Assembly (NCBI GenBank): GCA_026988235.1
Contig: JALSLQ010000048.1
Span: 1 to 49,976 of the forward strand
Reading direction: 5' to 3'
Source of the DNA: Sulfurimonas sp.
Lineage (GTDB): Bacteria > Campylobacterota > Campylobacteria > Campylobacterales > Sulfurimonadaceae
Length of the DNA: 49,976 nt
Below the pieces are notes generated by a model. The model did no database searches, was not told the origin of the DNA, and saw nothing but the letters and a program-made list of their open reading frames with translations. The translations under genes were made by a program, and so were the position numbers. Positions 13,304 to 38,292 of the stretch are shown here, piece by piece (the stretch's first letter is position 1; every line of letters begins with the position of its first letter).

Positions 13304-13400
13304 AAAATCTATTTTATTTAAAATGTCAAAAAACTTAAAATAACCAACTATTTACTATTTAAGGAGTACAATATATTTAATCAATCAATGGAGGGTTATG

Positions 13401-19058: not shown

Positions 19059-21191
19059 ATGATAAATAATGACCCGTCAATTAATATAGCCATACCAATT
19101 TTACCAAAAAGAATTGCGGGGCTAAAAGACATCTCTTTAAATTTATGGTGGACATGGAACCCTCGGGGTAAAAACCTTTTTAAATTATTGAATCCTTATT
19201 TATGGAAAGAGACAAGGCACAATCCCATAGCAATGCTTAAAAATATGTCACAAGAAGAGCTGAATAATGCCTGTTCTGATGAATATTTTATACGCGAATA
19301 TGATTATGTTTATAATGCTTTTCAATTATATATACAAGATAATAATATTTATGCTGATGAGCCTCTTCCTATCGCTTATTTTTGTGCTGAGTATGGTTTA
19401 CATCATTCTGTTCCTATATATTCCGGTGGTTTGGGATTTTTAGCAGGTGATATTTTAAAAGAATCTAGCGATATGGGTTTACCAATGGTAGGCATCGGAT
19501 TTATGTACCCAAAAGGCTATGTTCGCCAAATCATAGGGACTGATGGCTGGCAAAATGGAGCTGAAGAACCTATAAATAAGGATGTGGCACCCATTGAGCG
19601 TGTTTTAGATGAAGATAAAAATCATTTTACCATTCAAGTTCCATTTATTGACCCACCAATTTTCGCAAGTGTATGGAAAATAAATGTAGGACGCGTAACA
19701 TTATATTTACTTGATACAGATATTGAAAAAAATGACCCTTGGGATAGACAAATATCTTCAAGACTTTATACCTCAGATATCAATCAAAGACTCCGCCAAC
19801 AAATTGTGTTAGGGATTGGAGGATATAGAGTTTTAGAAGAGTTAGGCATTGAGTATTCTATTTTACATCTTAACGAAGGATACCCCGCTTTTGCCCTTTT
19901 TGAAAGAGTAAGAAGTTTTATGGAAAATGAAAATTTGACACTTGATGAAGCAATTGAAAAAGTAAAACAAACTTCTGTCTTCACAACACATACCCCTCTT
20001 CAAGCAGCAACAGATGTTTATAATTTTGATATGATGAGTGCTGCCTTTAAAGATTATTGGGGGAAACTTGGCATGAGTAAAGAGCAGTTTATGAACTTTG
20101 GATTAAATCCAGATGACCCCAATGCAGGTTTTAATATGACTGTTTTTGGTCTCAATATGTGTGATAACAGAAATGCTGTAAGTAAAAAACATTGTGAAGT
20201 GGCTAATCAAATATGGTCACATGTCTTACCAAAAAAAGAAGATGCTACATCTACGATAGACTATGTAACAAATGGTGTTCATATCCCCACATGGCTTGGT
20301 GATGATTTAGCGAGTATACTAGATCAATCAATCGGTGAAAAATGGAAATTACTACAAGATAAGCTTTCATGTTGGAGTTTTATAAAAGATATTGAAAATA
20401 AAAAACTTTGGAATATTTCACAAAATAGTAAAGTTTTAATGGTAAATTACATCCGAGATAAAGTTCGTGTAAAGTATGCAAAAGAAGGTATAGACCCTGT
20501 TGTCGCTATGGCTGAAGGTGTACTGTTGGATCCTGACATATTAACTATTGGATTTGCACGCAGGATGACACAATACAAAAGACCAGATTTAATTTTAAGT
20601 GATTTAAATCGTTTGGAAAAGATTGTGAACAATAGAGATAAGCCTGTTCAAATAATTTTTGCAGGTAAAGCACATCCTGCAGATATAGTTGGAAAAAAAA
20701 TACTACAGCATATTTTTAAAACTGCACAAGAATCTCGGTTTGGAGGTCGCATAGCATTTATTGAAGATTATGGTGAAAATGTGGCAAAATATTTGATTCA
20801 TGGCGTAGATGTTTGGCTCAATAATCCGAAAATTCCAATGGAAGCTTGTGGTACAAGTGGTATGAAAGCTTCAATTAACGGAACTCTTCATTTATCTTCA
20901 TTAGATGGTTGGTGGCCAGAGGGCTATAACGGGGAAAATGGTTGGAGTTTTGGTGAAGAACCATCAGACGATACTAAAGATGCAGAAGCTTTATATGAAC
21001 TTATTGAAAATGAGATTGTCCCTCTCTATTATGATTATGAAAATGACACAATACCAAATAAGTGGGTCGATAAAATGAAAGAAGCGATGGTTACAATTCC
21101 ATCAGAATTTAGTGCAAGAAGAATGATGAAAGATTATTTAAGAAAGTTTTATATTCCTATTTCTCTCACATTACAAAAAAGTAAAAAGTGA
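19059..21191 (+). CDS. glgP: Alpha-glucan (glycogen) phosphorylase
   Basis: 710 aa, the shorter bacterial/archaeal type of glucan phosphorylase (E. coli GlgP is about 815 aa). It releases glucose 1-phosphate from glycogen. The N-terminus LKDISLNLWWTWNP is typical of this subgroup, then YFCAEYGLHHSVPIYSGGLGFLAGD, LHLNEGYPAF, TTHTPLQAATD and GFARRMTQYKRPDL. The PLP-lysine motif EACGTSGMKASING is near residue 600. AAAGGA precedes the ATG. It follows enolase in the same direction. The product feeds the phosphoglucomutase encoded just beyond the reversed YfdX gene. Confidence 0.95.
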   Translation: MINNDPSINIAIPILPKRIAGLKDISLNLWWTWNPRGKNLFKLLNPYLWKETRHNPIAMLKNMSQEELNNACSDEYFIREYDYVYNAFQLYIQDNNIYADEPLPIAYFCAEYGLHHSVPIYSGGLGFLAGDILKESSDMGLPMVGIGFMYPKGYVRQIIGTDGWQNGAEEPINKDVAPIERVLDEDKNHFTIQVPFIDPPIFASVWKINVGRVTLYLLDTDIEKNDPWDRQISSRLYTSDINQRLRQQIVLGIGGYRVLEELGIEYSILHLNEGYPAFALFERVRSFMENENLTLDEAIEKVKQTSVFTTHTPLQAATDVYNFDMMSAAFKDYWGKLGMSKEQFMNFGLNPDDPNAGFNMTVFGLNMCDNRNAVSKKHCEVANQIWSHVLPKKEDATSTIDYVTNGVHIPTWLGDDLASILDQSIGEKWKLLQDKLSCWSFIKDIENKKLWNISQNSKVLMVNYIRDKVRVKYAKEGIDPVVAMAEGVLLDPDILTIGFARRMTQYKRPDLILSDLNRLEKIVNNRDKPVQIIFAGKAHPADIVGKKILQHIFKTAQESRFGGRIAFIEDYGENVAKYLIHGVDVWLNNPKIPMEACGTSGMKASINGTLHLSSLDGWWPEGYNGENGWSFGEEPSDDTKDAEALYELIENEIVPLYYDYENDTIPNKWVDKMKEAMVTIPSEFSARRMMKDYLRKFYIPISLTLQKSKK

Positions 21192-22138: not shown

Positions 22139-22273
22139 ACTTTATCCTTTGTGTATCAAGTTTGTTTAGTAAAATTATATAATTAAGTTGACAACAAAGA
22201 GTAAACAAAACATTTATTTGAGTTAAAGAATATTAAAAGTGAGTTGAGGGTATAATTAATAAAAGGGGTGTTT

Positions 22274-23926
22274 ATGATGGTAGATTCTTTAGCTGGAAAA
22301 TTAGTACCAAAAAAGGAACTTATAAATGTAGCGTTACTTGTCAGTGCCTATTATGAGCTTATACCAGATTCCTTTTCTGAAAATGAAAAAGTGACTTTTG
22401 GAACTTCCGGGCACCGTGGAAGTGCTTTAAAAAAAAGTTTTAATGAAGCACATGTAATGGCAATTACACAGGCTATTTGTGAGTATAAAAAGCAAATGGG
22501 TTATAAAGGAGTTCTTTATATTGGTAAAGACACGCATGCCCTTTCTACTCCAGCACAAATAACAAGCATAAGAGTATGTTGTGCAAATAAAGTACATGTA
22601 GCCATTGCTAAAGATGATGACTATACCCCTACCCCTCTTGTGTCCTTTGCCATTTTAGAGCATAACAAAAAGAGTCAAAATCATGCTGACGGCATAGTCA
22701 TCACTCCCTCACACAATCCTCCCCAAGATGGTGGTTTTAAATACAATCCACCAAACGGTGGACCGGCAGACACAGATGTGACGGCTATTATACAAAAAAG
22801 AGCCAACGAAATACTAAAAAATGGTTTGCAAGAGGTAAAAATTGTAAGTTATGAAGTAGCACTAGATTCCAAATATATTCAAGAGTTTGATTTTATAAGC
22901 CCTTATGTAAAAGCACTTGGGCAAATTATAGACATGGAAGCTATAAAAAATTCAAAGCTAAAACTCGCAGCGGATCCTCTTGGTGGTTCATCCATACCCG
23001 TGTATGAAAAAATAAAATCTTATTACAATCTTGATATGGAGATTATTCACCCTTATGCGGATGCAACATTTTCTTTTATGACACTTGATTATGATGGAAA
23101 AATTCGTATGGATTGCTCCTCTCCTTATGCTATGGCTTCATTACTAAAATTAAAAGACAATTATGATTTGGCTTTTGCAAATGACACCGATGCAGATAGA
23201 CATGGGATAGTGACACCAAAAGGTGGGCTGATAAATCCTAATCATTATCTTAGTGTGGCAATTTGGTACCTTTTTACATACCGCAAAAATTATGCAAAAA
23301 ATTTAAAAGTCGGTAAGACCTTGGTTTCTAGTTCTATGATAGACAAAATCTGTAGCAGTCTTGGTATAGATGTATATGAAGTTCCCGTCGGTTTTAAATG
23401 GTTTGTAGAGGGGCTTTATGAAGGCTGGCTTGGATTTGGTGGGGAAGAGAGTGCGGGAGCTTCGTATCTTCGATTTGATGGAAGCGTATGGAGTACCGAC
23501 AAAGATGGCATCATTATGACTCTTTTAGCGGCAGAGATTATGACTGTTACATGTAAAGATATAGCAGACATTTACGCTGAATTTGAAAAAGAATTTGGTA
23601 AAGCTTACTATGCTCGCATAGATGCACCTGCGACTTTAGAGCAAAAAAAGTTGCTTAAAGCCCTCAGTGCAGATGATATACAATTAGAGACTTTAGGTGG
23701 TGAAAAGATTGAGAAAATGCTTACACATGCAGCGGGAAACGGTGCTGCTATTGGTGGGCTAAAAATTGTAACACAAAACGGCTGGGTGGCAATGCGTCCA
23801 TCAGGAACGGAAGATATATATAAAATTTATGCTGAGAGTTTCATCTCACAAGAACATTTGCATTCTCTCCAAGAAGAGGCACAATCTGTAATGAAAATGT
23901 TATTTGAGAAGAGTAAAATAAAATAA
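22274..23926 (+). CDS. pgm: Phosphoglucomutase, alpha-D-glucose-specific
   Basis: 550 aa. It interconverts glucose 1-phosphate and glucose 6-phosphate, the link between glycogen and glycolysis. FGTSGHRGSA near the start is typical of the E. coli Pgm type. Active-site Ser in ITPSHNPPQDGG (about residue 146), metal loop NDTDADRHGIV, sugar-binding GGEESAGASYLR and phosphate-binding RPSGTEDIYK are all present. AGGGG lies 5 nt before ATG 22274; a GTG at 22268 overlaps that site and is unlikely. It begins the second block of the glycogen cluster, 13 bp from the next gene. Confidence 0.96.
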   Translation: MMVDSLAGKLVPKKELINVALLVSAYYELIPDSFSENEKVTFGTSGHRGSALKKSFNEAHVMAITQAICEYKKQMGYKGVLYIGKDTHALSTPAQITSIRVCCANKVHVAIAKDDDYTPTPLVSFAILEHNKKSQNHADGIVITPSHNPPQDGGFKYNPPNGGPADTDVTAIIQKRANEILKNGLQEVKIVSYEVALDSKYIQEFDFISPYVKALGQIIDMEAIKNSKLKLAADPLGGSSIPVYEKIKSYYNLDMEIIHPYADATFSFMTLDYDGKIRMDCSSPYAMASLLKLKDNYDLAFANDTDADRHGIVTPKGGLINPNHYLSVAIWYLFTYRKNYAKNLKVGKTLVSSSMIDKICSSLGIDVYEVPVGFKWFVEGLYEGWLGFGGEESAGASYLRFDGSVWSTDKDGIIMTLLAAEIMTVTCKDIADIYAEFEKEFGKAYYARIDAPATLEQKKLLKALSADDIQLETLGGEKIEKMLTHAAGNGAAIGGLKIVTQNGWVAMRPSGTEDIYKIYAESFISQEHLHSLQEEAQSVMKMLFEKSKIK

Positions 23927-23939
23927 TTAAAGGAAGCGT

Positions 23940-26441
23940 ATGAAAGCAGTAGTAATGGCAGGTGGTTTTGGAACTAGGATTCAACCACTCACAAATTCAA
24001 GACCTAAACCAATGTTACCAGTCATGAACAGACCTATGATGGAACATACAATGATGATGCTTAAAGATTTAGGCATCACAGAGTTCATTGTACTTTTATA
24101 CTTTAAACCCGAAGTTATTCAAAATTATTTTCAAGATGGGAGTAATTTTGGCATAAAAATAACCTACATTGTACCTGACAATGATTACGGAACCGCAGGG
24201 GCTGTTAAACTTGCACAAGAACAAATAGGAAATGAAAATTTCATCATCATCAGTGGTGATTTAGTGACTGATTTTAATTTTCAAAAATTATTTGATTTTC
24301 ATAGCTCTCAAAAAGCACAACTCTCTATAGGTCTTACTTCTGTTGAAAATCCTCTTGCTTTTGGAGTGGTTATTGCAAATGAAGACCATGTTATTGAAAA
24401 ATTTCTAGAAAAGCCTAGTTGGGGTGAAGTCTTTAGCGATACGATTAATACAGGAATTTACATTATTGAGCCTAAAATTTTGGATTTTATTCCCAAAGAA
24501 GAAAATTTTGATTTTGCAAAAGATTTGTTTCCTAAACTTATGGAAGAAAAAATCCCTTTAATGGCATATAATTTGAAAGGGTATTGGCGGGATGTCGGGA
24601 ACCCGCAAAGCTACAGAGAAGTGCATGAAGATATTTTTAATAAAAAAATAAAAATACATTTCTCTGGAAAAAAGAAAAAATACTCAGAGGGTGTTTTATA
24701 TACAAATAGCAAAAATAAAGTAGCGAAATCTGTAGAAATTATGGGAACAGTGCTTCTTGGCAAAAATGTAACAATTGAAAAAAATGTCAAACTCAAGGAT
24801 GTAGTGATTGGAGACAATGTTACCATCGGTGAATCATGTAAAATTAAAAACAGCGTATTGTGGGAAAACATTGAAGTACAAAATAATGTACTGTTAGATA
24901 ATAGCGTTATATGCAACCATAATTTCATAGGCAGAAATGTTGTTGCAAATGCCGGTCTCATCTTAGCGGAGAATTGTGACATAGGAGAATTAACAAAAAT
25001 AGAAAAAGATGTGACAATCTGGTCAGATAAAAAGATAGAACCGGCTTCTATTGTTACAAATAATCTTATTTTAGGGAACAAATATAAAAACTCTATCTTT
25101 GAAGACGGAAGTATCTATGGTAAAAGCAATGTAGAACTCTCCTGTGAAATGGCTACAAAAATAGCTGAAGCTTTTGGCGCCCAATTACCAGTTGGTTCTA
25201 CTGTTATAGCAGGGCGAGACCATGATAAAAATTCACATATGATAAAGCGTGCTTTTTTAGGTGGCTTAGTCTCTTCGGGCATAAATATTTTAGATTTAAA
25301 AGATGCACCTCCCTCAGTGCTTCGATATACATTAGCAAATGACAAAAATTTAATTGCAGGCATTCACTTTAAAAGATGTTTAAACGATACAGCAAGCTCG
25401 GAGATTACACTTTTTAATGAAGAGGCGATGCGAATTCATTCTGATTCTGCCAAAATAATTGAAAAAGCTTTTTTTTCAGAAAAATTTCGTCGTGTTGAGT
25501 TTACAAAAATTGGCTCCATAATAAATTCAGAACATCATATTGAATGTTTTAATTATCAACAAAAAATCAAAGAGAAAATTGACCACAACATTGTAAAAGA
25601 AGAAAATTTTAAAGTTGTTTTTGATTTAATGCATGGAATAGCAGGTGATGTTTTAACAAAAATTATTAATGAAATTTTAATTGAAAATATAATGTTAAAT
25701 ACATATTATGATGCAACAATACTAGCAAATATTGACATATTAAAAAAGAAATCTTTTTCTAATGTTTCTAAGATAGTTACTTGCCTTGGGTATGATATGG
25801 GAATTATTATATACCCAAATGCACAGCAACTTACCTTAGTAAGTGAAACGGGTGCTGTGCTGAACAAAATAGAGACTTTATATGCAGTTTTAGAATTATT
25901 AAATCTAGATGCAATGAATGAAAAAAGAAAGGTTTTTCTACCAACATGGGCACCAGATATGAGGCACTTTAAAAATCTCATTATTCATAGAGGCAGGTAT
26001 GCTGATTTTAATGTTTCAAAGCTAAAAGAGTATGATTTAATCGCCACAACAGATGGCAACTTTGCTTTTACTGAATTTACCTATACACGCGATGCCATCT
26101 ATGCATCTCTAAAAATCATGGAGCTACTCAGCAAATACAAACTTAATCTCTCACAACTCGTGGCATCCTTAGAGAAATTTTATTATAAACAATTAAAGGT
26201 AGCTTGTCCTCAAAAACTCAAGGGTAAAATGATGAGAAAGTTTTTGAAATATGCACAAGATAAAAAATCATGCTCAGAAGTCGGTGTCAAAATCTGGGAA
26301 GATAAAAATGATTGGATTTTGATGATACCTGATCAGTACAGTGAACATTTAAAGTTATATATTCAAGCCAAAGATGACACACGCGGAGAGATAATTCTTC
26401 AAAAGTATCTTGAAAAAATAGAGTTGTGGTCTAAAGAGTAA
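23940..26441 (+). CDS. Sugar-phosphate nucleotidyltransferase fused to a degenerate phosphohexomutase domain
   Basis: 833 aa. Residues 1-230: nucleotidyltransferase with MAGGFGTRIQPLT, RPKPMLPV, ISGDLVTDF and LKGYWRDVGNP, most like mannose-1-phosphate guanylyltransferase or GlgC-type enzymes. About 250-375: left-handed beta-helix (hexapeptide repeats such as VVIGDNVTIGESCKI). About 390-833: phosphohexomutase fold (IAGRDHDKNSHMIKRAFLGGL, then FRRVEF), but the catalytic Ser-His-Asn-Pro loop reads HFKRCLNDTASSE and the DGDxDR metal loop reads LGYDMGIIIYPNAQ. Fusions with an inactive mutase part are known in several phyla, usually annotated GDP-mannose pyrophosphorylase. No canonical glgC is in the cluster, so this gene may supply the NDP-glucose for glycogen synthesis; that is inference. 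Confidence 0.8.
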   Translation: MKAVVMAGGFGTRIQPLTNSRPKPMLPVMNRPMMEHTMMMLKDLGITEFIVLLYFKPEVIQNYFQDGSNFGIKITYIVPDNDYGTAGAVKLAQEQIGNENFIIISGDLVTDFNFQKLFDFHSSQKAQLSIGLTSVENPLAFGVVIANEDHVIEKFLEKPSWGEVFSDTINTGIYIIEPKILDFIPKEENFDFAKDLFPKLMEEKIPLMAYNLKGYWRDVGNPQSYREVHEDIFNKKIKIHFSGKKKKYSEGVLYTNSKNKVAKSVEIMGTVLLGKNVTIEKNVKLKDVVIGDNVTIGESCKIKNSVLWENIEVQNNVLLDNSVICNHNFIGRNVVANAGLILAENCDIGELTKIEKDVTIWSDKKIEPASIVTNNLILGNKYKNSIFEDGSIYGKSNVELSCEMATKIAEAFGAQLPVGSTVIAGRDHDKNSHMIKRAFLGGLVSSGINILDLKDAPPSVLRYTLANDKNLIAGIHFKRCLNDTASSEITLFNEEAMRIHSDSAKIIEKAFFSEKFRRVEFTKIGSIINSEHHIECFNYQQKIKEKIDHNIVKEENFKVVFDLMHGIAGDVLTKIINEILIENIMLNTYYDATILANIDILKKKSFSNVSKIVTCLGYDMGIIIYPNAQQLTLVSETGAVLNKIETLYAVLELLNLDAMNEKRKVFLPTWAPDMRHFKNLIIHRGRYADFNVSKLKEYDLIATTDGNFAFTEFTYTRDAIYASLKIMELLSKYKLNLSQLVASLEKFYYKQLKVACPQKLKGKMMRKFLKYAQDKKSCSEVGVKIWEDKNDWILMIPDQYSEHLKLYIQAKDDTRGEIILQKYLEKIELWSKE

Positions 26442-26445
26442 CAGT

Positions 26446-28467
26446 GTGAATTTAAGTTTTTTATGGCATATGCACCAACCTGACTACCGTAACAAAGAAG
26501 GTATAATGCAGATGCCATGGGTCTTTTTACATGCAATCAAAGACTACTATGATATGCCTTGGATGATGGCTAGGCATAAAAGTATAAAAGCTACATTTAA
26601 CATAACACCTACGCTTATAGAACAACTCAAACTTTATTATCATACTCCCGAGCAAAACGATAAGTTTTTATCTCTTTGGCTAAGAGACCCTGCTTTATTA
26701 GAAGAAGATGAGCGTAAATGGCTTATAAAAATTTGCAATATCTCTCAATTTGAAACAATGGTAAAACAGTTTGACAGATACACACAACTCTTTAATCAGA
26801 AGCATCTTAATAACAATGAACTCATTGATTTAGAAGTATTGTTTATACTCTCATGGTGTGGGGTTTATTTGCGTACACATAATGATTTTATACAAAAACT
26901 AATACAAAAACAAAAAGATTATACTTTAGATGATAAAAAAATGCTCTTAAAAGAGTTGTCACATTTTATATCAGGTATATTTGATTACTATACGCAACTG
27001 CATAATGACAAGCGCATAACAATAGCAACTACACCATTTTATCACCCTATTTTGCCACTTTTACTAGATATGAAAAATGCTACAAAGGCAAATATAAATA
27101 CTAAAATACCAACAAATTACATAAAAATGGAAGACGACGCACGGTTGCATATAAAACGGGCAAAGAGAGTATTTGAAAATACTTTCGGATTTGAAGCAAA
27201 TGGATTTTGGCCGGCAGAGGGAGCCGTTGATACAGCAAGTGTAAAACTCTTCCACTCATTTGGCGTCAAGTGGGTAGCCACAGATGAGGCCATACTCTAT
27301 AAATCTTTACATGTAAACAATAAAAATTTGATTTATGTGCCTTATCACTATAATGATATGATTATAGCTTTTCGAGATCATCATTTAAGTGATTTGATAG
27401 GTTTTGAATATAGATACAAAAAAGCTGATGAAGCTGCTAAACATTTTATATCACAACTGCAAAACATACAAAACATAGATCAAAAGAGTACTGCATTTGT
27501 TATTTTAGATGGTGAAAATGCTTGGGAATTTTACAAAAACAATGGTTTTGATTTTTTTGAAGCACTCTACACTGCACTCGAACAAACCAGTTGGTGCAAA
27601 AGTATTACAATGGATGAAGTGACAAGTTTACCATCACGCGAACTCACAAATTTAGAACCGGGAAGTTGGATAAATGCAACATTTGACACTTGGGTTGGAA
27701 ATGCGCAAAAAACAAGAGCGTGGGAACTGCTTTTTTTGACTAAAAAAGATTATGAACATCATAAAGCATCATTAAATCAGGCAAAGAAAGATACAATAAC
27801 AGATCACTTTTTAGCAGCTGAATGTTCTGATTGGTTTTGGTGGTATGGAGAGGATCATTATACTGATTTTGGCAGAGAATTTGATGAATTATTTAGGAAT
27901 CATCTTATTGACATATATGATTTGATGGAAATTGTTCCACCCGCGGACTTATTTATTCCAATTACAAAGGGTAAAAGTTTTGGCGACTTTTGGATAAAAC
28001 CACAATATAACATCACACCGACAATAGATGGAAAAAAAGATTCGTTTTTTGAGTGGCTCGGTTGTGGGGTGATTGATGAGAATAAACTCTTTTCAACTAT
28101 GGACAGAAAAAGAGGGCCAATCAAAAAAATATATTATGGCCAAGATGACAAAAACTTGTATTTTTTATTTGAAGGAGAGATGCAAAGTTTATGCACAAAA
28201 GCAATATTGACGATTTTTATGAAGCCTTCTAATACTCCATTAAAAGTTGCATTTAATGCCGGAGAAGTAGCGGTAAATAATGTCAAAATTAATGTTATAT
28301 GTAAAGAGTCTTTAGAATTTAGTATAGCAAAAGAAACACTCTTTACAAATGAAGTATCTTTGCGATTTGAAATTGATAATGGTGTAAAGGCACTCCAAAT
28401 TCTTCCTAGTTTTGGTGAGCTTCAAATAAATTTGCATGATGATTATAGTCAAAATTGGTTTATATAA
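26446..28467 (+). CDS. Glycoside hydrolase family 57 alpha-glucan enzyme
   Basis: 673 aa from GTG 26446; the upstream gene ends 5 bp before and the ribosome site is poor. The N-terminus FLWHMHQPDYR is the GH57 signature. Catalytic Glu is in GFWPAEGAVD (about residue 257) and catalytic Asp in ILDGENAWEFY (about 356). The C-terminal third is beta-rich and follows a WFWWYGEDH segment typical of the alpha-amylase/amylopullulanase-like GH57 group. It probably trims or rearranges alpha-glucan in the cytoplasm, since there is no signal peptide. It is followed at 14 bp by a second, different GH57 gene. Confidence 0.88.
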   Translation: MNLSFLWHMHQPDYRNKEGIMQMPWVFLHAIKDYYDMPWMMARHKSIKATFNITPTLIEQLKLYYHTPEQNDKFLSLWLRDPALLEEDERKWLIKICNISQFETMVKQFDRYTQLFNQKHLNNNELIDLEVLFILSWCGVYLRTHNDFIQKLIQKQKDYTLDDKKMLLKELSHFISGIFDYYTQLHNDKRITIATTPFYHPILPLLLDMKNATKANINTKIPTNYIKMEDDARLHIKRAKRVFENTFGFEANGFWPAEGAVDTASVKLFHSFGVKWVATDEAILYKSLHVNNKNLIYVPYHYNDMIIAFRDHHLSDLIGFEYRYKKADEAAKHFISQLQNIQNIDQKSTAFVILDGENAWEFYKNNGFDFFEALYTALEQTSWCKSITMDEVTSLPSRELTNLEPGSWINATFDTWVGNAQKTRAWELLFLTKKDYEHHKASLNQAKKDTITDHFLAAECSDWFWWYGEDHYTDFGREFDELFRNHLIDIYDLMEIVPPADLFIPITKGKSFGDFWIKPQYNITPTIDGKKDSFFEWLGCGVIDENKLFSTMDRKRGPIKKIYYGQDDKNLYFLFEGEMQSLCTKAILTIFMKPSNTPLKVAFNAGEVAVNNVKINVICKESLEFSIAKETLFTNEVSLRFEIDNGVKALQILPSFGELQINLHDDYSQNWFI

Positions 28468-28481
28468 AGGAAAACGATAAA

Positions 28482-30470
28482 ATGAAAAAAGTATCTCTAT
28501 TATTTGGTATTCATATGCATCAGCCGGTAGATAATTTTGATAAAGCAGTAGAAAAAGCGGTCAAACTTTCTTATGCTCCTTTTTTTGCAACCATGAAAAA
28601 ATACCCTGATTTTAAATTTTCTCTGCATTGTAGCGGATGGCTCCTTGAAAAGATTCGCCTTGAGTACCCTGAACTTTTTCAAAACATGCAATATCTTACA
28701 AATACAGGTTCGATAGAGTGGTTAAGTGGCGGTTATTATGAACCTGTTTTAAGTGCTATACCATCAAAAGACAGACGCGCACAGATAAAAAAACTAAGTC
28801 GATATATTCAAAAATATTTTGGACAAACCCCTCATGGATTATGGCTTGCAGAGCGTGTTTGGGAAAGCTCTTTAGTAGGTGATTTGCAAGCATGCAAGAT
28901 TGAGTATGCCATGGTAGATGATTATCATTTTTTAAGTAATGGCTATGATGAAATGAATGGATATTACACGACAGAAGATAACGCAAAAGAGCTTAAACTC
29001 TTTCCTATAGCAAAATCACTACGATATGCCCTGCCCTTTTCTCAAGTAGAAGATTCCATCACATCCATAGTAAAATATTCACATGAAGACAATGCTAGTG
29101 CCATCTTTTTTGACGATGCTGAAAAATTTGGACTTTGGCCACAAACAAATAAATGGGTTTATAAAGAAAAATGGCTTGAAAAATTTGTACAAGCGGTGTT
29201 AGATCATAAACAAATATCTACACAACACTATAGCAATTATGTCGCTACAAGCAAATCATTGGGCTTGGCTTATTTAGACAATTGCTCTTATTTTGAAATG
29301 GCACAATGGAGTTTACCCCCAAAAGAAGCCGAAACTTTTGAAAAATTAAGAGAGCATCACCCTCTCTTAAAAGGAGGCATTTGGAAGAACTTTTTTATAA
29401 AATACCATGAAAGTAACTATTTGCATAAGCGTATGCTCTCTCTTAGCCTGAAACAAAAATCTTTTAGCAAAGACGCATTAGAAGCACTCTATAAATTACA
29501 AACAAACGATACTTTCTGGCATGGTGTTTTTGGTGGTTTTTATCTTCCTAGTCTTCGTGACAATGCTTATAAATATCTTTTAACCATAGAAAAGCAACAG
29601 CATAAAAAAGGCTTAGAATTTACAGTTTTAGACATAAATAAAGATGGTTTTGATGACCTTAAAGTTCTCACAGATGATTACAGTGCCATCATCAGTACAA
29701 AAAATGGTGCGCAACTCATTGAGTTTGGTTCTTTAGATACACTTTTTAATTGGCAAAATACGATTATGCGAAGAAAAGAACTCTACCATAAAAAAATTCT
29801 GCATCCCCAAGTGCAAAACCAAGAAATAAAAAGTAATACGGTACAAACCATCCATGAGAGAACACTCCACATTAATAATAGCTTGCGGGCTGAACTTATT
29901 TATGACTGGCATGAAAAAAACTCTTTTATTGAACATTTTAGTTTAGAGCCTTTTACATTAGAAAACTTCAAAACATTGACATTCAGAGAAATAGGCGATT
30001 TCGCCAATAAATCCTTTACCTTAAAAAATAAAAAATTTATTCGCAAAGGAAATCTCTATTTGAATGCCGGAGTGTATCCATCAAAATTAAAAAAACAGTA
30101 TAGTTTTTTAAAGAATAAAATTGTACTACAAAATAAATTTAAAAGTGCCTATACAAAGAAGATTTATTTTGCAGAAGAGTTTAATTTGCATTTTGCACAT
30201 CCCAAGAAAGTAACGCTGAATGAAAAATATGTTCAAGATGGTTTTTGTGAACTTAATTGCAATACATTACGCATTGCAGATGATTTTACACACAAGAGTA
30301 TGATAATAAAAACAAATCAAAAATGCACTATTTATGCTTTTGTTTTACATACTGTTTCTCAATCTGAACAAGGATTTGAGAAAATAGCGCAACAGATTAG
30401 TTTTATATTTACAACATCTTTTTCTGTAAAATTAGCATTAGAGTTTTCCATAGAGGTTATTGATGTCTGA
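28482..30470 (+). CDS. GH57 4-alpha-glucanotransferase-like enzyme
   Basis: 662 aa from ATG 28482 with AAGGA upstream; a TTG at 28455 is in frame inside the previous gene and is unlikely. LLFGIHMHQPVDNF at the start, catalytic Glu in LAERVWESS (about residue 124) and catalytic Asp in FFDDAEKFGLWP (about 212) match the GH57 glucanotransferase/amylase branch. The C-terminal half (about 380-660) is a beta-rich domain of the kind appended to those enzymes (DUF1925/1926-like). It transfers maltooligosaccharide segments, complementing phosphorylase and branching enzyme. It overlaps the GalT-like gene by 8 nt. Confidence 0.88.
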   Translation: MKKVSLLFGIHMHQPVDNFDKAVEKAVKLSYAPFFATMKKYPDFKFSLHCSGWLLEKIRLEYPELFQNMQYLTNTGSIEWLSGGYYEPVLSAIPSKDRRAQIKKLSRYIQKYFGQTPHGLWLAERVWESSLVGDLQACKIEYAMVDDYHFLSNGYDEMNGYYTTEDNAKELKLFPIAKSLRYALPFSQVEDSITSIVKYSHEDNASAIFFDDAEKFGLWPQTNKWVYKEKWLEKFVQAVLDHKQISTQHYSNYVATSKSLGLAYLDNCSYFEMAQWSLPPKEAETFEKLREHHPLLKGGIWKNFFIKYHESNYLHKRMLSLSLKQKSFSKDALEALYKLQTNDTFWHGVFGGFYLPSLRDNAYKYLLTIEKQQHKKGLEFTVLDINKDGFDDLKVLTDDYSAIISTKNGAQLIEFGSLDTLFNWQNTIMRRKELYHKKILHPQVQNQEIKSNTVQTIHERTLHINNSLRAELIYDWHEKNSFIEHFSLEPFTLENFKTLTFREIGDFANKSFTLKNKKFIRKGNLYLNAGVYPSKLKKQYSFLKNKIVLQNKFKSAYTKKIYFAEEFNLHFAHPKKVTLNEKYVQDGFCELNCNTLRIADDFTHKSMIIKTNQKCTIYAFVLHTVSQSEQGFEKIAQQISFIFTTSFSVKLALEFSIEVIDV

Positions 30471-31476
30471 CATAAGATTTGATGTATTGCATAACACTCA
30501 TAGCATTATAGCACCCGAACGCTTGCATCGTCCAAATTTACTGCAGCACGAGTCTATAACAAAAAGAAAAATAAAATGCCCATTCTGTGAAGGCAATGAA
30601 AATTTAACACCGCCTGAAATTTTTGCTATGCGTAACAATAAAGCAAACACTTCGGGATGGAAAACAAGAGTCGTGCCAAATCTTTATAAAGCGCTTCAAA
30701 TAGAAGTAGATGAAGACTCACAAAGAAATGGATTTTTTGAATCTATCAACGGATTTGGAGCGCATGAGATTTTGATAGATTCTCCTTGTCATACATGTAA
30801 TATGAATGCACTCAAAAAGGAAGGTATCCAAAACTGGCTGAGAACTATCATAATTCGTAAAAATGATTTGAAAAAAGATACACGATTAATATATCTGCAA
30901 GTTTTTAAAAATAGCGGACAAAATGCAGGCGCTACACAAGAACACCCTCACACACAACTGATAGCACTTCCCTTAGTACCCGAAGCAACACTTCTTTTTT
31001 TACAAAGAAATCAAGAGTATTTTGAGATTCATGGCAGAGGTTTGCTTGCAGATATAGTGCATAATGAACAACTTGCAAAAGTGAGAGTTATTGATGAAAC
31101 AGGCGCATTTATAGCCTACTGTCCTTATGCCAGCGCATATGCTTTTGAAGTCATAATAGCGCCTACGGAAAACATTTATAATTTAGATAGTTGCAGTAGA
31201 GAAAATGTGAGTGATTTAGCACTACTACTGCAAAAAGTTTTTGCAATGCTAAACAAACAGCTTGGCAAATTCGCTTACAATATAAACTTCCATTTTGCAC
31301 CGCTCAATAGGAACTTTGAAAATGAAAAATATATGCAAAATTTAGAAAAAAATTTCAGGTTTTACATAAGAATAACTCCCAGAATCTACACTTTAGGCGG
31401 ATTTGAATTAGCAACATCTATGGCAATTAACAGCGTCGCCCCTGAAACCGCGGCAAAACTACTTAGAGGAGACTAG
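30463..31476 (+). CDS. GalT-like nucleotidyltransferase (HIT superfamily)
   Basis: 337 aa from ATG 30463, with GAGG 6 nt upstream. Zinc-site-like CPFCEGNENLTPPEIFA at about 39-55, then WKTRVVPNLYKAL and the active-site histidine motif GATQEHPHTQLIALPLVP at about 157-175. It will be annotated galactose-1-phosphate uridylyltransferase. The residues after the histidines (QLIALPLVP) resemble, from memory, the plant GalT-like ADP-glucose phosphorylase more than E. coli GalT. No galK or galE is nearby; all neighbours are glycogen genes. I infer a nucleotide-glucose phosphorylase or transferase role at the glucose 1-phosphate step. Confidence 0.85.
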   Translation: MSDIRFDVLHNTHSIIAPERLHRPNLLQHESITKRKIKCPFCEGNENLTPPEIFAMRNNKANTSGWKTRVVPNLYKALQIEVDEDSQRNGFFESINGFGAHEILIDSPCHTCNMNALKKEGIQNWLRTIIIRKNDLKKDTRLIYLQVFKNSGQNAGATQEHPHTQLIALPLVPEATLLFLQRNQEYFEIHGRGLLADIVHNEQLAKVRVIDETGAFIAYCPYASAYAFEVIIAPTENIYNLDSCSRENVSDLALLLQKVFAMLNKQLGKFAYNINFHFAPLNRNFENEKYMQNLEKNFRFYIRITPRIYTLGGFELATSMAINSVAPETAAKLLRGD

Positions 31477-31479
31477 AAA

Positions 31480-32808
31480 ATGAAAATTCTTTTTGCCTCA
31501 AGTGAAATCTATCCTTATGCCAAAACAGGCGGATTAGCAGATGTTTCAAGTGCTTTGCCTATAGCCTTAAAAAAATATAGCAATATTTCGCGCGTGATGC
31601 CTTTGTATGGTTGTATGAATACAGAAAAGTTTGCTTTTTATGATGATTTTAGTGTAAGTTTAGATGGCAATACCTATAGTATTCAAGTGTTCAAAGATGA
31701 AAAAAAAGGGGTGTGCAGCTATTTTATCAAAGCACCGTTTTTAAGTGAGACAAAGAGATTATATGGAGATGACAAAGGTGACTATAAAAACAATGCCTTG
31801 CGTTTTGGTATATTTTGTATGGCAATTGTTCAACTTTCTCTTCGCTTAAATATCACTGTCATTCATCTCAATGACTGGCATACAGCACTTGTAGCACTTT
31901 TTGTAAAAGATTTGGAACTTGGCTTAAAAACAGTATTTACAATTCACAATCTTGCATATCAAGGTCTTTTTGATGCAACGGTATTAGAACTTTTAGGCAT
32001 CCCTTCTAAATATTTTACCATGGAGAGCTTGGAATTTTATGAAAAAGTAAATTTTTTAAAAGCAGGCATTGCCTACAGTGATATTATTACAACGGTCAGT
32101 CCAACATATGCAAAAGAGATACTGACCCCTGAATTTGGTTGTGGTCTTGATGGATTTTTAAGACAACACCAGCATAAATTGGTAGGCATTTTAAATGGTA
32201 TTGATACCATTTCACAATATAATGATGAAATAAATCTCATAAATATAAAAGCAAAATATAAAGATGATACTTTGCCTCTTTTTGTGATGATAACGCGTTT
32301 AGTTGCCCAAAAAGGAATTGATTTATTGATTGATTCATTTTCCTCCCTCATGCAAGAAAACATTAATCTCTTTATACTTGGTGATGGCGATGCACACATC
32401 ACACAAAAGTTAAAAGAACTTGCACACAAATATGAAAATTTTTATTTTTTTAGTGGCTATGATGAAAAGCTGTCACATCAGGCATATACGGCAGCTGATT
32501 TTTTATTGATGCCTTCAACATTTGAGCCTTGTGGTCTCAATCAGTTTATCGCTATGTATTACGGTACCATCCCTATAGTACATAGCGTTGGAGGATTGCA
32601 AGACAGTGTCCACGAAAAGGAAATAAAATGCGGACGGGGTATTGGCTATAAAAATCAAACAAAACAGGAATTTGTGTCTGCCATAAAGAGAGCCTTAGCC
32701 CTGAGTAAACAAGAGAGAAAAAAGATTGTTGCCTTTAATAGACACTGTGACTTTTCTTTTCACAAAAGTGCTTTGAAATATCTCAAATTATATAAGAGTC
32801 TCGTATGA
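31480..32808 (+). CDS. Glycogen synthase-like glycosyltransferase (GT5), short paralogue
   Basis: 442 aa, about 40-50 shorter than GlgA. The N-terminus FASSEIYPYAKTGGLADVSSALP has the KTGGL ADP-glucose motif; HLNDWHTALV, TIHNLAYQG and GILNGID follow. The C-terminal domain has MITRLVAQKGIDLL and PSTFEPCGLNQF (about 345-356) with the catalytic Glu. The segment after GILNGID that normally reads W-x-P-x-x-D ... K-x-x-LQ is missing: NGIDTISQYNDE passes directly to KYKDDTLPLF. GAGGAGAC precedes the ATG. It overlaps the glucokinase by 4 nt. It may be a specialised synthase or a regulatory paralogue of the full-length GlgA downstream. Confidence 0.85.
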   Translation: MKILFASSEIYPYAKTGGLADVSSALPIALKKYSNISRVMPLYGCMNTEKFAFYDDFSVSLDGNTYSIQVFKDEKKGVCSYFIKAPFLSETKRLYGDDKGDYKNNALRFGIFCMAIVQLSLRLNITVIHLNDWHTALVALFVKDLELGLKTVFTIHNLAYQGLFDATVLELLGIPSKYFTMESLEFYEKVNFLKAGIAYSDIITTVSPTYAKEILTPEFGCGLDGFLRQHQHKLVGILNGIDTISQYNDEINLINIKAKYKDDTLPLFVMITRLVAQKGIDLLIDSFSSLMQENINLFILGDGDAHITQKLKELAHKYENFYFFSGYDEKLSHQAYTAADFLLMPSTFEPCGLNQFIAMYYGTIPIVHSVGGLQDSVHEKEIKCGRGIGYKNQTKQEFVSAIKRALALSKQERKKIVAFNRHCDFSFHKSALKYLKLYKSLV

Positions 32809-33647
32809 TTTTAGGTATTGATATAGGTGGTTCTTATCTTCGATATGAGTTAAGAAAAAATAATATTCTTGTTACAAGAAATGTGCTAAAAAGTGTACAA
32901 ACAGGACTGTATGCTTTTTTAAAAGGTATATTAGATGAACACCACACAATAACTACAGTTTTCATCTCTTATGCCGGGCAGGTAAATAATGGCGTAATTT
33001 TATCTGCCCCAAATATAGCAATAGATGAACATAATATCAAAGCAAGCATAGAAGAAAAATATAGCGTAGAATTATTTATAGAAAATGATCTTAATTGTGC
33101 AGTTCTAGCAGAATCGGCTCTTTATAAAAGCAATGACATCTGTGCTATTTCTGTCGGAACAGGTCTTGGACTTGGTGTCATCAGTTCTACAACACTCATA
33201 AAAGGATTTGAAAATATTGCTACGGAATTAGGACATATTCCCTATAAAGAATCCCCCTTTACATGTAACTGCGGGAAAAAAAACTGTATAGAACTTTTTT
33301 GTTCCGGCAGTGGACTTATGAAATGGAAAAAAGAGTATGGACTGGATGAAAGTCTCACACTCAAAGAATTAAAAAACAGTTATAATAAAGATGCAAAAAG
33401 AATTTATGATGAGTTTTTTAAGGCACTTTTTCATGCGTTTGGCACGATTATTACACTGTTTAACCCTCAAATTTTAGTTTTAGGGGGAGGCATAATACTT
33501 AACAATAAATATATTCTCCAAGAAGTCAAGAAAAATATCAAAAACTATGCTCTGCCACTTGCTTTGAAAAATATAAAAATAGTACACACACAATTAAAAA
33601 ATGCCTCTCTTGAAGGTGCATTTTTATTAAAGGATTTTCATGCCTAA
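32805..33647 (+). CDS. ROK family glucokinase
   Basis: 280 aa. It phosphorylates glucose with ATP. The N-terminal phosphate motif LGIDIGGSYLRYE, sugar-binding ENDLNCAVLAE, VGTGLGLGVI and the ELGHIPY segment with the catalytic region are present. The ROK zinc motif reads CNCGKKNCIELFCSG (about 154-168), and LGGGIILNN lies near the C-terminus. Overlaps with both glycogen synthase genes (4 and 8 nt) indicate one polycistronic mRNA. Free glucose released by the GH57 enzymes or the glucanotransferase would be its substrate. Confidence 0.9.
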   Translation: MILGIDIGGSYLRYELRKNNILVTRNVLKSVQTGLYAFLKGILDEHHTITTVFISYAGQVNNGVILSAPNIAIDEHNIKASIEEKYSVELFIENDLNCAVLAESALYKSNDICAISVGTGLGLGVISSTTLIKGFENIATELGHIPYKESPFTCNCGKKNCIELFCSGSGLMKWKKEYGLDESLTLKELKNSYNKDAKRIYDEFFKALFHAFGTIITLFNPQILVLGGGIILNNKYILQEVKKNIKNYALPLALKNIKIVHTQLKNASLEGAFLLKDFHA

Positions 33648-35112
33648 CAAAAAATTAAATATTTTATTTGCTGCAGCTGAAGTTGTTCCATTTGCTAAAA
33701 CTGGCGGTTTAGCTGATGTTGCAGGTGCTTTGCCAAAAGCCATTAGAAAACTAGGACATAACATTATCGTTGTAATGCCAAGGTATTATGAAATAGATAC
33801 TACTCAACTAGAAAAGCTTCCTGCTCCCTTAGGTGTTCCTATGGGCGTGATGGGTGAGTTTTGGGCTGCTGTTTACAGTACGACCTTGCCCCAGAGTGAT
33901 GTCAAAATTTATTTTATTGATTATGAACACTATTTTGGAAGACGCAATTTATATGAAGATGATAATGGTGGGTATCATGACAATGACAATAGATTTGTCT
34001 TTTTTTCAAAAGCAGCACTTCAACTTTGTAAGATGTTGCATTTTACACCTGATATTATTCACGCAAATGATTGGCATACCGCAGCAATGCCACTTTTAAG
34101 CACTACAAGATTTGTCCATGATTTTGCCAATGCCGCTTCCGTTTTAACAATTCATAATCTGCAACATCAAGGAACTTTTTATAAAGGCATCATAGATGTG
34201 CTTGAAGTTGGTTGGGAGCATTTTAATCCACATGAGCTTGAAAGTATGGACAGCGTAAATTTACTCAAAGGAGGCATAGCCACAGCGAACGCAATTACAA
34301 CTGTTTCAAAAAAATATGCACAAGAGATACAAACATCTGAATTTGGTTTTGGACTTGACCATCACATCCGTGCACACAATGGAAAACTCTTTGGTATTTT
34401 AAATGGTGTAGATTACGATGAATGGAGTCCAACAACCGATACATACATAGCTCAAAACTATGACATCAACAATATGTCAGGAAAAAAGGTGTGTAAAAAA
34501 GATTTGCAAAAACATTTTGCTCTGCCACAAAGAGATGATGTCGTCTTGATTGGTTTTGTGGGTCGATTGGTTGAACAAAAAGGTATAGGGCTTATAGCAG
34601 GTGTAATTAACGGTCTACTGGGTCATGACATTCAAGTCGTTATGCTAGGAACAGGAGAACAATGGGCAGAAGATTTTTTTAATGAAGTTGCCTATAATAG
34701 AGAGAATTTTGCCTTACATGTAGGCTATAGTAATACTTTAGCCCATAAAATAGAAGCAGGCTGTGATATGTTTCTCATGCCATCTTTATTTGAGCCATGT
34801 GGACTCAACCAAATATATAGCCTTGCCTATGGAACACTCCCCATAGTAAGAGCAACAGGCGGTCTTGATGATACCATCGTAAACTTTGATACACAGCATA
34901 AACATGGCAATGGATTTAAGTTTTACGATGCAACGCAAGAGGCTCTTTATTATACAGTTTTATGGGCGTTAAATATTTACTATAAGGAGAAAGAAGCTTT
35001 TAAGGAAATGCAAAAAGTTGCAATGCAGGAACATTTTAGTTGGGAAGATTCAGCAAAAGCCTATATAGATGTATATAGATTTGCTTTAAACAATAAAAGG
35101 AATGCGTTATGA
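33640..35112 (+). CDS. glgA: Glycogen synthase
   Basis: 490 aa, standard length. It elongates glycogen from an NDP-glucose, ADP-glucose in most bacteria. LFAAAEVVPFAKTGGLADVAGALP (ADP-glucose site Lys near residue 21), HANDWHTAAMP, TIHNLQHQG, GILNGVDYDEWSP, IGFVGRLVEQKGI and PSLFEPCGLNQI with the catalytic Glu are all present. The ribosome site AAAGGA sits within the end of glucokinase (8-nt overlap). It is followed by the branching enzyme with a 4-nt overlap, giving the classic glgA-glgB order. Confidence 0.97.
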   Translation: MPNKKLNILFAAAEVVPFAKTGGLADVAGALPKAIRKLGHNIIVVMPRYYEIDTTQLEKLPAPLGVPMGVMGEFWAAVYSTTLPQSDVKIYFIDYEHYFGRRNLYEDDNGGYHDNDNRFVFFSKAALQLCKMLHFTPDIIHANDWHTAAMPLLSTTRFVHDFANAASVLTIHNLQHQGTFYKGIIDVLEVGWEHFNPHELESMDSVNLLKGGIATANAITTVSKKYAQEIQTSEFGFGLDHHIRAHNGKLFGILNGVDYDEWSPTTDTYIAQNYDINNMSGKKVCKKDLQKHFALPQRDDVVLIGFVGRLVEQKGIGLIAGVINGLLGHDIQVVMLGTGEQWAEDFFNEVAYNRENFALHVGYSNTLAHKIEAGCDMFLMPSLFEPCGLNQIYSLAYGTLPIVRATGGLDDTIVNFDTQHKHGNGFKFYDATQEALYYTVLWALNIYYKEKEAFKEMQKVAMQEHFSWEDSAKAYIDVYRFALNNKRNAL

Positions 35113-37025
35113 AATATGAAATTTTTTATGATATTACACTTTTTAGTGCGTTAGATATTTACCTTTTTAAAGAGGGTACACACGCAAAACTTTATAATCA
35201 TTTAGGCTCACATAGACTTCAAAGAGAAGGTGTCACTGGTGTTTATTTTGCTGTTTGGGCACCCAATGCAAAAAATGTTTCTGTCGTGGGTGATTTTAAT
35301 GCGTATGATGAGACAAAACATTATCTGAAAAAACGAGAAGATGAATCTGGAATATGGGAGGGTTTTATCACAAATATTGTAGATGATATGACTTATAAAT
35401 ACTTCATTCACTCAGCAAATAATGCGAATCCATACAAAGCAGACCCTTATGCTTTTTATGCAGAAGTAAAACCAAAATCAGCTTCTAAAATTTGGAGCTT
35501 AAATGGATACAGCTTCAAAGATTCAAAATGGATGAAACAGCGCGCAAAAAGAAATTCTCATAAAGAAGCACTCTCAATATATGAAGTACATTTAGGTTCT
35601 TGGAGGAGAAAAGTTGAAGAAGATAATCGGTATTTGAGCTATCTTGAATCAGCACATGAACTTGCAGCGTATGTCAAAGAGATGCAATTTACTCACATTG
35701 AACTCCTTCCGATAATGGAGCATCCTTTTGATGGTTCTTGGGGCTATCAGACAACGGGTTATTTTGCACCAACATCGCGTTATGGCACACCACAAGAATT
35801 TATGGAATTTGTAGATATCATGCATCAAAACGACATCGGGGTTATTATGGACTGGGTACCGTCGCATTTTGTAACGGACGGGCATGGGCTTATGAATTTT
35901 GACGGCACTTGTTTATATGAACATGCCGATCCAAAAAAAGGCTACCATCCAGAGTGGAAAAGTGCTATATTTAATTATGACAGAAATGAAGTGCGTGCTT
36001 TTTTAATCAGTTCTGCTATGTATTGGTTTGATTTTTATCATATAGATGGTATCCGCGTTGACGGGGTAGCTTCTATACTTTATCTTAATTATGCGAGAAA
36101 AGAAGGAGAATGGACACCCAATGAAGACGGAAGTAATATTAATCGTGGTGCTGTCAAATTTTTAAAACAACTCAATACAAGCGTATATGAAAACTTCAAA
36201 GATATCATAATGAGTGCAGAAGAATCTACGAACTATTCTATGGTGACGGGAATGGTTGACAAAGGCGGTCTAGGCTTTGGGTATAAGTGGAATATGGGTT
36301 GGATGCATGATATATTAAAATATATGAAAGTAGATCCACTTTATAGAGAACATCATCACAAAGATTTGACTTTTAGTTTTGTTTATATGTTCCATGAAAA
36401 TTATGTGCTTCCACTAAGCCATGATGAGGTTGTACATATGAAAGGCTCTTTGATAAATAAAATGCCTGGAGATAATTATAGAAAATTTGCAAATTTACGG
36501 GCTTTATATGCTCTTATGATGGCACATCCTGGGAAAAAGCTTCTTTTTATGGGTGGCGAATTTGCACAGTTTAATGAATGGCATTATGAACAGAGTTTAG
36601 ATTGGCACTTATTAAAGCAAGATGAACATAAAGGCGTGCAAAACTGTATGAAAACTTTAAATGCTTTATATAAATCAGAACCATCTCTCCATAGAAACGA
36701 TGTCATCAATGAAGGTTTTTCATGGATAGATGAAAATGATGCAAGTGCCAATGTCATTGCTTTTATTCGTAAAGGAGCAAGAAATCAAAAGCCTGTTATC
36801 ATCATATGTAATTTTGCAGATAAAGAACATGAAAATTATGGGGTTGGTTTACCATCCAAAGGATTGTATGAAGAAATTTTTACTTCTGATTATGTAGAAT
36901 TTGGTGGTGCTAGTAAAAAAATGCGAACCATACAATCAAAAGCAAAAGAGTATAACGGAAGAAAAAATATGTTACATATTACACTGCCACCACTGAGTGT
37001 AATCTATTTAAAAAAAATGAGCTAA
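35109..37025 (+). CDS. glgB: 1,4-alpha-glucan branching enzyme
   Basis: 638 aa, GH13. It introduces alpha-1,6 branches into glycogen. The N-terminal CBM48 domain (VYFAVWAPNAKNVSVVGDFNAYD) is at about 35-130. The barrel has ELLPIMEHPFDGSWGYQ, DWVPSHF, nucleophile Asp in GIRVDGVASILY (about 318), acid Glu in SAEEST (about 369) and LPLSHDEVVH (about 437). The C-terminal beta domain ends at 638. It lacks the extra N1 domain of E. coli GlgB. It overlaps glgA by 4 nt and sits 13 bp before the isomerase. Confidence 0.97.
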   Translation: MKYEIFYDITLFSALDIYLFKEGTHAKLYNHLGSHRLQREGVTGVYFAVWAPNAKNVSVVGDFNAYDETKHYLKKREDESGIWEGFITNIVDDMTYKYFIHSANNANPYKADPYAFYAEVKPKSASKIWSLNGYSFKDSKWMKQRAKRNSHKEALSIYEVHLGSWRRKVEEDNRYLSYLESAHELAAYVKEMQFTHIELLPIMEHPFDGSWGYQTTGYFAPTSRYGTPQEFMEFVDIMHQNDIGVIMDWVPSHFVTDGHGLMNFDGTCLYEHADPKKGYHPEWKSAIFNYDRNEVRAFLISSAMYWFDFYHIDGIRVDGVASILYLNYARKEGEWTPNEDGSNINRGAVKFLKQLNTSVYENFKDIIMSAEESTNYSMVTGMVDKGGLGFGYKWNMGWMHDILKYMKVDPLYREHHHKDLTFSFVYMFHENYVLPLSHDEVVHMKGSLINKMPGDNYRKFANLRALYALMMAHPGKKLLFMGGEFAQFNEWHYEQSLDWHLLKQDEHKGVQNCMKTLNALYKSEPSLHRNDVINEGFSWIDENDASANVIAFIRKGARNQKPVIIICNFADKEHENYGVGLPSKGLYEEIFTSDYVEFGGASKKMRTIQSKAKEYNGRKNMLHITLPPLSVIYLKKMS

Positions 37026-37038
37026 AAAAGGATTAAAT

Positions 37039-38292
37039 ATGCTGAACTATGAAAATGATTTTAACTGGGATAAAAATGAGACAACACAAACACTCATGGA
37101 TGAAACATATAAGAAAATAGTTGATGAAAAAGAGAATAAAGTTTCTGGTTATTACACGCTAGGTGAAGATTCTTTACCTATTGTTGACGCCGTTCTTGCA
37201 CAAATTGAGTCAAGTGAATTTATACAAAAATGCGATACAGTCGTTGTTATCGGTATAGGTGGTTCTTCTCTTGGAACCAAAGCAATCCATTCTAGTGTAA
37301 AACATCAATATGAAAATGCAAAAAGAATTATGTTTTTAGAAAATCCTGATGAAATAGATTTATCTGAGAAACTCGCAACAATAAAAAAAGAAAAAACAAT
37401 TTTTATAATTATTTCTAAATCTGGTTCTACTGTAGAGACGCTCTCTATTTTTAAAGAAGTGATAGCAAGATTTTCATTAGATTATGCAGGCAAAAATAAA
37501 AAACAAATTATAGCGATTACCGATTTTGATTCTGCTTTATATAAATTTGCACAACATTATGGTATTCAAACATACAATATTCCAAAAAATGTAGGAGGTC
37601 GCTTTTCAGTTTTAAGTGCTGTGGGAATTGTGCCTTTAACCTTAGCAGGCTATGACACAAAAGCTCTTTTAAACGGTGCATCTATGATGTCTGAGAACTT
37701 TTTTGCTTTAAAAGAGAAGCATCTTTTAGAAAAAGCTGCTTTTTTTACCGCATATAAAGAGCAGTATCCAATGAATGTAATGTTTTCTTATGCAAACTGT
37801 TTGGAGGATTTTACCAAGTGGTATGTACAATTATGGGGTGAATCTTTAGGAAAAATTGACAAAGAGGGTGAAAATGTAGGGCTTACTCCCATTGGGCATA
37901 TAGGTTCTGTTGATCAGCACTCTTTTTTACAGTTAATTATGGAAGGTCCACGAGATAAAACGGTTACTTTCATTAAACTTGAGAATTTTGAAAAAAAGAT
38001 TAAAATACCAACTATTAGTTTGAAATTTCTTGAAAAAGCAGACTATATCAATGGATATACCTTCAACGAACTCATAGACGGTGAATGTGAAGCTACAAAA
38101 GAGAGCATTATACAACAAGGGATCAATGTTGATGAGATTGCTTTAGATAAACTCAATGAAAGCAATATTGGAAAGTTGATTATGTATTATGAATTACTCA
38201 CTTCACTCTGTGGCAAAATGCTTCACATAGATACATATAATCAACCCGGAGTAGAATTAGGCAAGCAAATTTTGGTGAAAAAATTCAACTAA
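37039..38292 (+). CDS. pgi: Glucose-6-phosphate isomerase
   Basis: 417 aa, the short form found in Campylobacterota (E. coli Pgi is about 549 aa). It interconverts glucose 6-phosphate and fructose 6-phosphate. VVVIGIGGSSLGTKAIHSS, IIISKSGSTVETLS, the active-site arginine region VGGRFSVLSAVG, catalytic Glu region WGESLGK, and HSFLQLIMEGPRDKT are present; the C-terminal NQPGVELGK carries the active-site Lys. AAAAGGA lies 7 nt before the ATG. It joins the glycogen and gluconeogenic halves of the cluster. Confidence 0.95.
   Translation: MLNYENDFNWDKNETTQTLMDETYKKIVDEKENKVSGYYTLGEDSLPIVDAVLAQIESSEFIQKCDTVVVIGIGGSSLGTKAIHSSVKHQYENAKRIMFLENPDEIDLSEKLATIKKEKTIFIIISKSGSTVETLSIFKEVIARFSLDYAGKNKKQIIAITDFDSALYKFAQHYGIQTYNIPKNVGGRFSVLSAVGIVPLTLAGYDTKALLNGASMMSENFFALKEKHLLEKAAFFTAYKEQYPMNVMFSYANCLEDFTKWYVQLWGESLGKIDKEGENVGLTPIGHIGSVDQHSFLQLIMEGPRDKTVTFIKLENFEKKIKIPTISLKFLEKADYINGYTFNELIDGECEATKESIIQQGINVDEIALDKLNESNIGKLIMYYELLTSLCGKMLHIDTYNQPGVELGKQILVKKFN

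Follow-up and report, generated by a model that had tools for sequence, protein, structure and literature searches.

What makes the glucosyl donor for glycogen synthase in an operon that encodes two synthases and a branching enzyme, and in which no glgC is found? The question is raised by a window of 49,976 nucleotides (the whole stretch of DNA analyzed here) from Sulfurimonas sp., which carries a series of genes in the order pgm-fusion-GH57-GH57-galT-glgA-ROK-glgA-glgB-pgi, all on the forward strand and either overlapping or separated by a few bases. The gene for an intact alpha-D-phosphoglucomutase, the source of glucose 1-phosphate (pgm, 22268..23926), ends 13 bases upstream of a fusion gene (23940..26441). 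Downstream follow a GH57 protein (26446..28467), whose gene is the commonest one directly 3' of the fusion in relatives, a second GH57 protein of the alpha-amylase/4-alpha-glucanotransferase type (28455..30470), a member of the GalT-like hexose-1-phosphate uridylyltransferase family with an HPHTQ motif (30460..31476), the glycogen synthase GlgA1 (31480..32808), a ROK-family sugar kinase (32805..33647), the glycogen synthase GlgA2 (33640..35112), the branching enzyme GlgB (35109..37025) and glucose-6-phosphate isomerase (pgi, 37039..38292). An alpha-glucan phosphorylase family protein is encoded upstream on the same strand (19059..21191). A sequence-only reading of this DNA had described GlgA and GlgB without a canonical GlgC in the cluster, and this description holds: there are two glgA genes and one glgB, and profile searches of the window ORFs did not find glgC. 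Among the operon genes (pgi, pgm, the two glgA, glgB and the degradation genes), the fusion is the only candidate for a donor-making enzyme.

The two glycogen synthases of the operon are approximately 40% identical, and both possess the KTGGL and EPCG motifs. The GalT-like gene is conserved throughout the order and also in Cryosericum; its product could be an NDP-glucose phosphorylase or could link galactose to glycogen. The operon is flanked by genes for a PPDK/PEP-synthase-type protein (13398-15815), a DeoC/LacD-type aldolase (16406-17308), enolase (17684-18961) and glyceraldehyde-3-phosphate dehydrogenase (38346-39353), with which it forms a gluconeogenesis-to-glycogen gene block.

The source genome (1.8 Mb, 92.6% complete), the enzyme inventory of which rests on family searches, contains no match to the GlgC model TIGR02091 that reaches its cut-off; a canonical glgC elsewhere in the genome, which the sequence-only reading had proposed to look for, was thus not recovered. 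None of the 99 genomes of the order (the source and 98 relatives) had a TIGR02091 match at E<=1e-50, nor did any of the 397 genomes sampled from the phylum at E<=1e-60, and the NF003670 model gave no glgC match either. Bacillus subtilis, a known glgC carrier in the control set, was missed by both glgC models at E<=1e-50, while its glgA was found. The search can therefore miss glgC, and "absent" is to be read here as not found by these searches.

The distribution of the fusion closely parallels that of glgA. Among relatives at least 95% complete and at most 5% contaminated, 34 carry both genes, 26 carry neither, none carries glgA only and one carries the fusion only; in this last genome the 6.8-kb contig with the fusion breaks off after the second GH57 gene, inside the operon. 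An evenly drawn sample of the phylum gave the same picture, with the fusion and glgA together in 21 genomes and neither in 139 (n=160; the query combined GlgA2 of the window with the pseudo-mutase part, matches to each being separated by query range, and about 9 of the 21 genomes were new with respect to the first sample). Within at least five families, as well as within the window's own genus, the fusion and glgA are jointly present or absent, indicating that their link is not a single shared event. A separate set of 42 fusion-bearing genomes, mostly from other phyla, was reached by a DNA pattern and selected for the fusion, and is therefore only descriptive: a glgA match was present in 25 (24 above the curated cut-off) and a glgC match in 8, all of them within these 25.

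Gene order is conserved as well. The arrangement fusion-GH57-GH57-galT-glgA-ROK-glgA is kept in most of the 40 regions from relatives, and two records labeled "Campylobacterota bacterium" encode fusions 64-65% identical to that of the window between the same upstream and downstream genes. In two Cryosericum genomes, which belong to another phylum, GH57, glgA and the fusion are adjacent, and glgC was not found. In several relatives, an ORF for a glycosyltransferase-like protein of 550-570 aa with a weak glgA-profile match adjoins the fusion (G048:C2:540677-542032 and G002:C3:192390-193742, for example); its place is taken by pgm in the window.

The fusion also occurs in other settings. Some Campylobacterota copies stand alone outside the operon; the tree does not separate lone and operon copies into two clades, implying that the protein can also function away from it. 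One such setting was observed on plasmid pSULKU01 of Sulfuricurvum kujiense, where a fusion 58% identical to that of the window (L041, 12035-14572) overlaps a gene for a patatin-like phospholipase, with phospholipase A and efflux pumps close by and no glycogen gene nearby. Fusions of Clostridia, Armatimonadota and Actinomycetota have different neighbors which, together with the lone copies, suggests that the family may serve several pathways.

The fusion ORF (23940..26441, forward strand) encodes a single protein of 833 aa, in which the ORF list, Pfam matches, an AlphaFold2 model and structure matches concur on a nucleotidyltransferase, a left-handed beta-helix and a pseudo-phosphohexomutase. 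The NTP_transferase domain (residues 2-232, 23943..24635; Pfam, E 4.9e-57) is followed by a left-handed beta-helix/hexapeptide domain (LbH_EIF2B, residues 253-353, 24696..25037; Pfam and model). Mutase domains I (PGM_PMM_I, residues 387-517, 25098..25490) and II (PGM_PMM_II, residues 539-638, 25554..25853) were recognized by Pfam, domain III (25860..26189) by a weak PGM_PMM_III match (residues 707-746) and by structure match, and domain IV (26190..26438), missed by Pfam, by the AlphaFold2 model and the family motifs KGxxMR and W-x-L-x-x-PD. The model (mean pLDDT 87, pTM 0.63), for which 41 diverse homologues were aligned, contains all four mutase domains, and its C-terminal part superimposes on Thermococcus phosphoglucomutase 9du5 with a Z-score of 40.5 and an rmsd of 2.6 over 437 residues; the protein thus has the four-domain fold of phosphohexomutases. 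A further 25 full-length homologues from the same order could be aligned and, given these and the conserved gene order, chance is not a concern.

The nucleotidyltransferase site, described as intact in the sequence-only reading, is indeed so: GGxGxR, PKP, SGD107, E157-K158-P159, NTG and D218 are invariant in all 41 aligned sequences. These include D107 of SGD (24258..24260) and D218 of YWxDxG (24591..24593), both predicted to bind metal, and K158 of EKP (24411..24413), predicted to bind the sugar phosphate. With its catalytic residues present and a score of 193.8 bits against a cut-off of 21.2, the protein belongs to PF00483, and its transferase half looks active. Assignment to a characterized subfamily is less straightforward. 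The fusion scores 136 bits against TIGR02091, for which the curated cut-off is 424.9, and is accordingly not a GlgC; nor is it a ManC/GMP-PMI (TIGR01479), as it lacks a phosphomannose isomerase domain. Its top NCBIfam match is NF052502, mannose-1-phosphate guanylyltransferase (236.9 bits, below the cut-off of 440). The best profiles and structures for this half are mannose-1-phosphate guanylyltransferases and GMPP, which it resembles more than GlgC; the model of the N-terminal part matches GDP-mannose pyrophosphorylases with a Z-score of approximately 38, the nearest solved structures being eukaryotic GMPPB/VTC1 (25-29% identity). This leaves room for GDP-mannose or another NDP-sugar as product. 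We know of no decisive residue near the GTAG motif that determines the nucleobase.

Taken with the operon and the glgA pairing, these features make it quite probable that the fusion acts as the NDP-glucose pyrophosphorylase in a glycogen pathway that lacks GlgC, and feeds GlgA. The same resemblance to guanylyltransferases would also suit a mannose-1-phosphate guanylyltransferase that supplies the synthesis of envelope glycans with GDP-mannose and whose place in a glycogen operon is historical, and fusions of other phyla often adjoin genes for GT4 glycosyltransferases. The source genome offers little to such an enzyme. It encodes four PF00483 proteins, namely the fusion, GlmU, an HddC-like protein and GalU (matched in two pieces); besides the fusion, the PF02878 mutases comprise Pgm and GlmM, with no dedicated phosphomannomutase, and ManC gave no TIGR01479 match at E<=1e-60; no route to mannose 1-phosphate is therefore visible. 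Furthermore, the fusion follows glgA and not ManC, with which it shows no association among the relatives of the order (p ~0.4; the p-values for co-occurrence, with glgA as well as with ManC, ignore phylogeny), and every profile score is far below the curated cut-off. We consider a mannose enzyme unlikely.

Equally unlikely, in our judgment, is that GlgA receives UDP-glucose made by GalU, either by itself or together with the GalT-like protein, while the fusion produces a different nucleotide sugar or has a purely regulatory part. GalU is encoded in the genome, the GalT-like gene with its HPHTQ motif almost matches the fusion in its conservation in the operon (40 regions), and Pseudomonas aeruginosa, which is without GlgC, is described as pairing a UDP-glucose pyrophosphorylase with GlgA (PMC11046441). 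This arrangement would leave unexplained why the fusion is found in all good-quality genomes of the order that have glgA and is missing from those without it, and why its catalytic residues are intact.

Supply of NDP-glucose by the fusion, as put forward in the sequence-only reading, is strongly supported by synteny, by co-occurrence with glgA, by the failure to find glgC and by the lack of a visible mannose-1-phosphate route.

The mutase half differs sharply from its active relatives. Alignment to three intact mutases revealed that all four catalytic loops are degenerate in the window protein, which is thus not an active alpha-D-phosphohexomutase: the Ser loop reads KRCLND (25371..25388; TASHNP in active enzymes), the metal loop YPNAQQ (25812..25829; DGDxDR), the sugar loop ATTDG (26043..26057; GExSG) and the phosphate loop IPDQYS (26325..26342; RxSGTE). 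The loss of the Ser and DGDxDR loops had been recognized before, and that of the other two is added here. The loops are likewise degenerate in the 25 aligned homologues of the same order, and they are not intact in the fusions of Streptomyces and Nonomuraea, nor in those of Clostridia, Armatimonadota, Elusimicrobia, Spirochaetes, Chloroflexi and others, indicating that the loss is old. Across 73 aligned fusions, the Ser at the catalytic position is kept in 29, the three Asp residues (DGDGDR) in a single one and both in none; no member with all four loops was encountered among the fusions tested from many phyla. The protein with DGDGDR, from Clostridiales bacterium AS15tlH2ME_109 (L136, 253-2673), no longer has its Ser, sugar and phosphate loops and is possibly an intermediate in the decay of the mutase. 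Judged by its sequence, then, the mutase half has long been a pseudo-enzyme, with a loss of loops common to the family across many phyla.

The dead half is nonetheless under purifying selection, as its dN/dS between the closest pairs (approximately 0.06 vs 0.04-0.05 for the transferase half) is low. Such strong selection suggests a role in ligand binding, regulation or scaffolding, and a sensor or binding domain, as envisaged in the earlier reading, is plausible for a fold that is kept while its four catalytic loops are absent. That the mutase half might still be partly catalytic, so that the fusion makes its own glucose 1-phosphate, is very improbable: the retained fold, the low dN/dS and the residual Ser and DGDGDR residues would be in keeping with it, but the Ser and the three Asp are not combined in any aligned fusion, all four loops are missing from the window protein, and an intact mutase gene adjoins the fusion in the window as well as, directly 3', in Endomicrobium (L122, 2952-4373) and Geothermocultor (L157, 3484-4890; PGM/PMM in both).

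In the pathway that we favor, with the fusion as donor-making pyrophosphorylase, Pgi and Pgm of the operon would provide glucose 1-phosphate, which the N-terminal nucleotidyltransferase would convert with an NTP (ATP, UTP or GTP) into NDP-glucose and pyrophosphate; GlgA1 and GlgA2 would then polymerize glucose from NDP-glucose, and GlgB would introduce branches. Glucose 1-phosphate as substrate and the role of the product as GlgA donor are what pathway logic and co-occurrence lead us to infer. The beta-helix domain probably oligomerizes the protein, by analogy with GDP-mannose pyrophosphorylases. The pseudo-mutase is most likely a binding module for a ligand or partner and would control the transferase or hold it in position, a task that would be comparable to what GlgC achieves through its own allosteric sites.

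The fusion shares with GlgC the nucleotidyltransferase fold, the left-handed beta-helix, the proposed pathway step and the place in the gene cluster, and differs from it in a C-terminal pseudo-mutase of approximately 450 residues that GlgC lacks. This pseudo-mutase in turn has the four-domain fold of archaeal-type phosphoglucomutases/phosphomannomutases (9du5 and 1wqa; Z-score ~40 over ~440 residues, 21-22% identity) without their four catalytic loops. Another non-GalU nucleotidyltransferase with a beta-helix, tlr0611 (8x7s; 29-30% identity), is by its PDB name a UDP-glucose pyrophosphorylase, with glucose 1-phosphate as substrate, but has no mutase domain and a different sequence around the GTAG motif. 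The fused mannose-1-phosphate guanylyltransferase/phosphomannomutase, which we take KEGG K16881 to denote (Synechocystis sll1496, for example), resembles the aligned Streptomyces, Nonomuraea and clostridial homologues in domain order and length, a likeness of architecture alone; the K16881-type annotation implies an active mutase, whereas none of the aligned fusions has all four loops. A precedent for regulation by a dead relative is GMPPA, described as a non-catalytic, GDP-mannose-binding protein that pairs with the active pyrophosphorylase GMPPB (PMC11228364); it is no evidence for the case of the fusion, where the dead partner is a mutase rather than a nucleotidyltransferase, is fused to the enzyme and stands in a glycogen context.

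Donors made without GlgC are in principle already known for bacterial and archaeal GlgA, and nucleotidyltransferase/PMM fusions are already annotated. Besides the Pseudomonas case, the precedents are a GlgC of Aeromonas that makes UDP-glucose and a GDP-glucose pyrophosphorylase of Haloarcula (PMC11046441), and Bacteroidetes have been reported to be without GlgC (PMC10395257). Our literature searches on glycogen synthesis without glgC in Campylobacterota and on fused or inactive phosphomannomutases yielded nothing on point; neither the dead mutase of the fusion nor its proposed replacement of GlgC was described in the literature covered. As far as the searched literature shows, the family-wide loss of loops, the selection on the dead half and the pairing with glgA in a phylum without a found glgC are new.

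More generally, we tentatively propose that in this phylum and in at least one unrelated lineage (Cryosericum) GlgC may have been replaced by an enzyme regulated by its fused pseudo-mutase, a dead metabolic enzyme that might sense hexose phosphates or glucose 1,6-bisphosphate allosterically. Such fusions usually bear the label of a bifunctional mannose enzyme whose mutase is active. If our reading of the fusion is right, it would fill in the glycogen pathway of a whole bacterial group, correct an annotation found in many phyla and offer a system, simple to work with experimentally, in which a metabolic enzyme has become a regulatory domain attached to the enzyme that follows it in the pathway.
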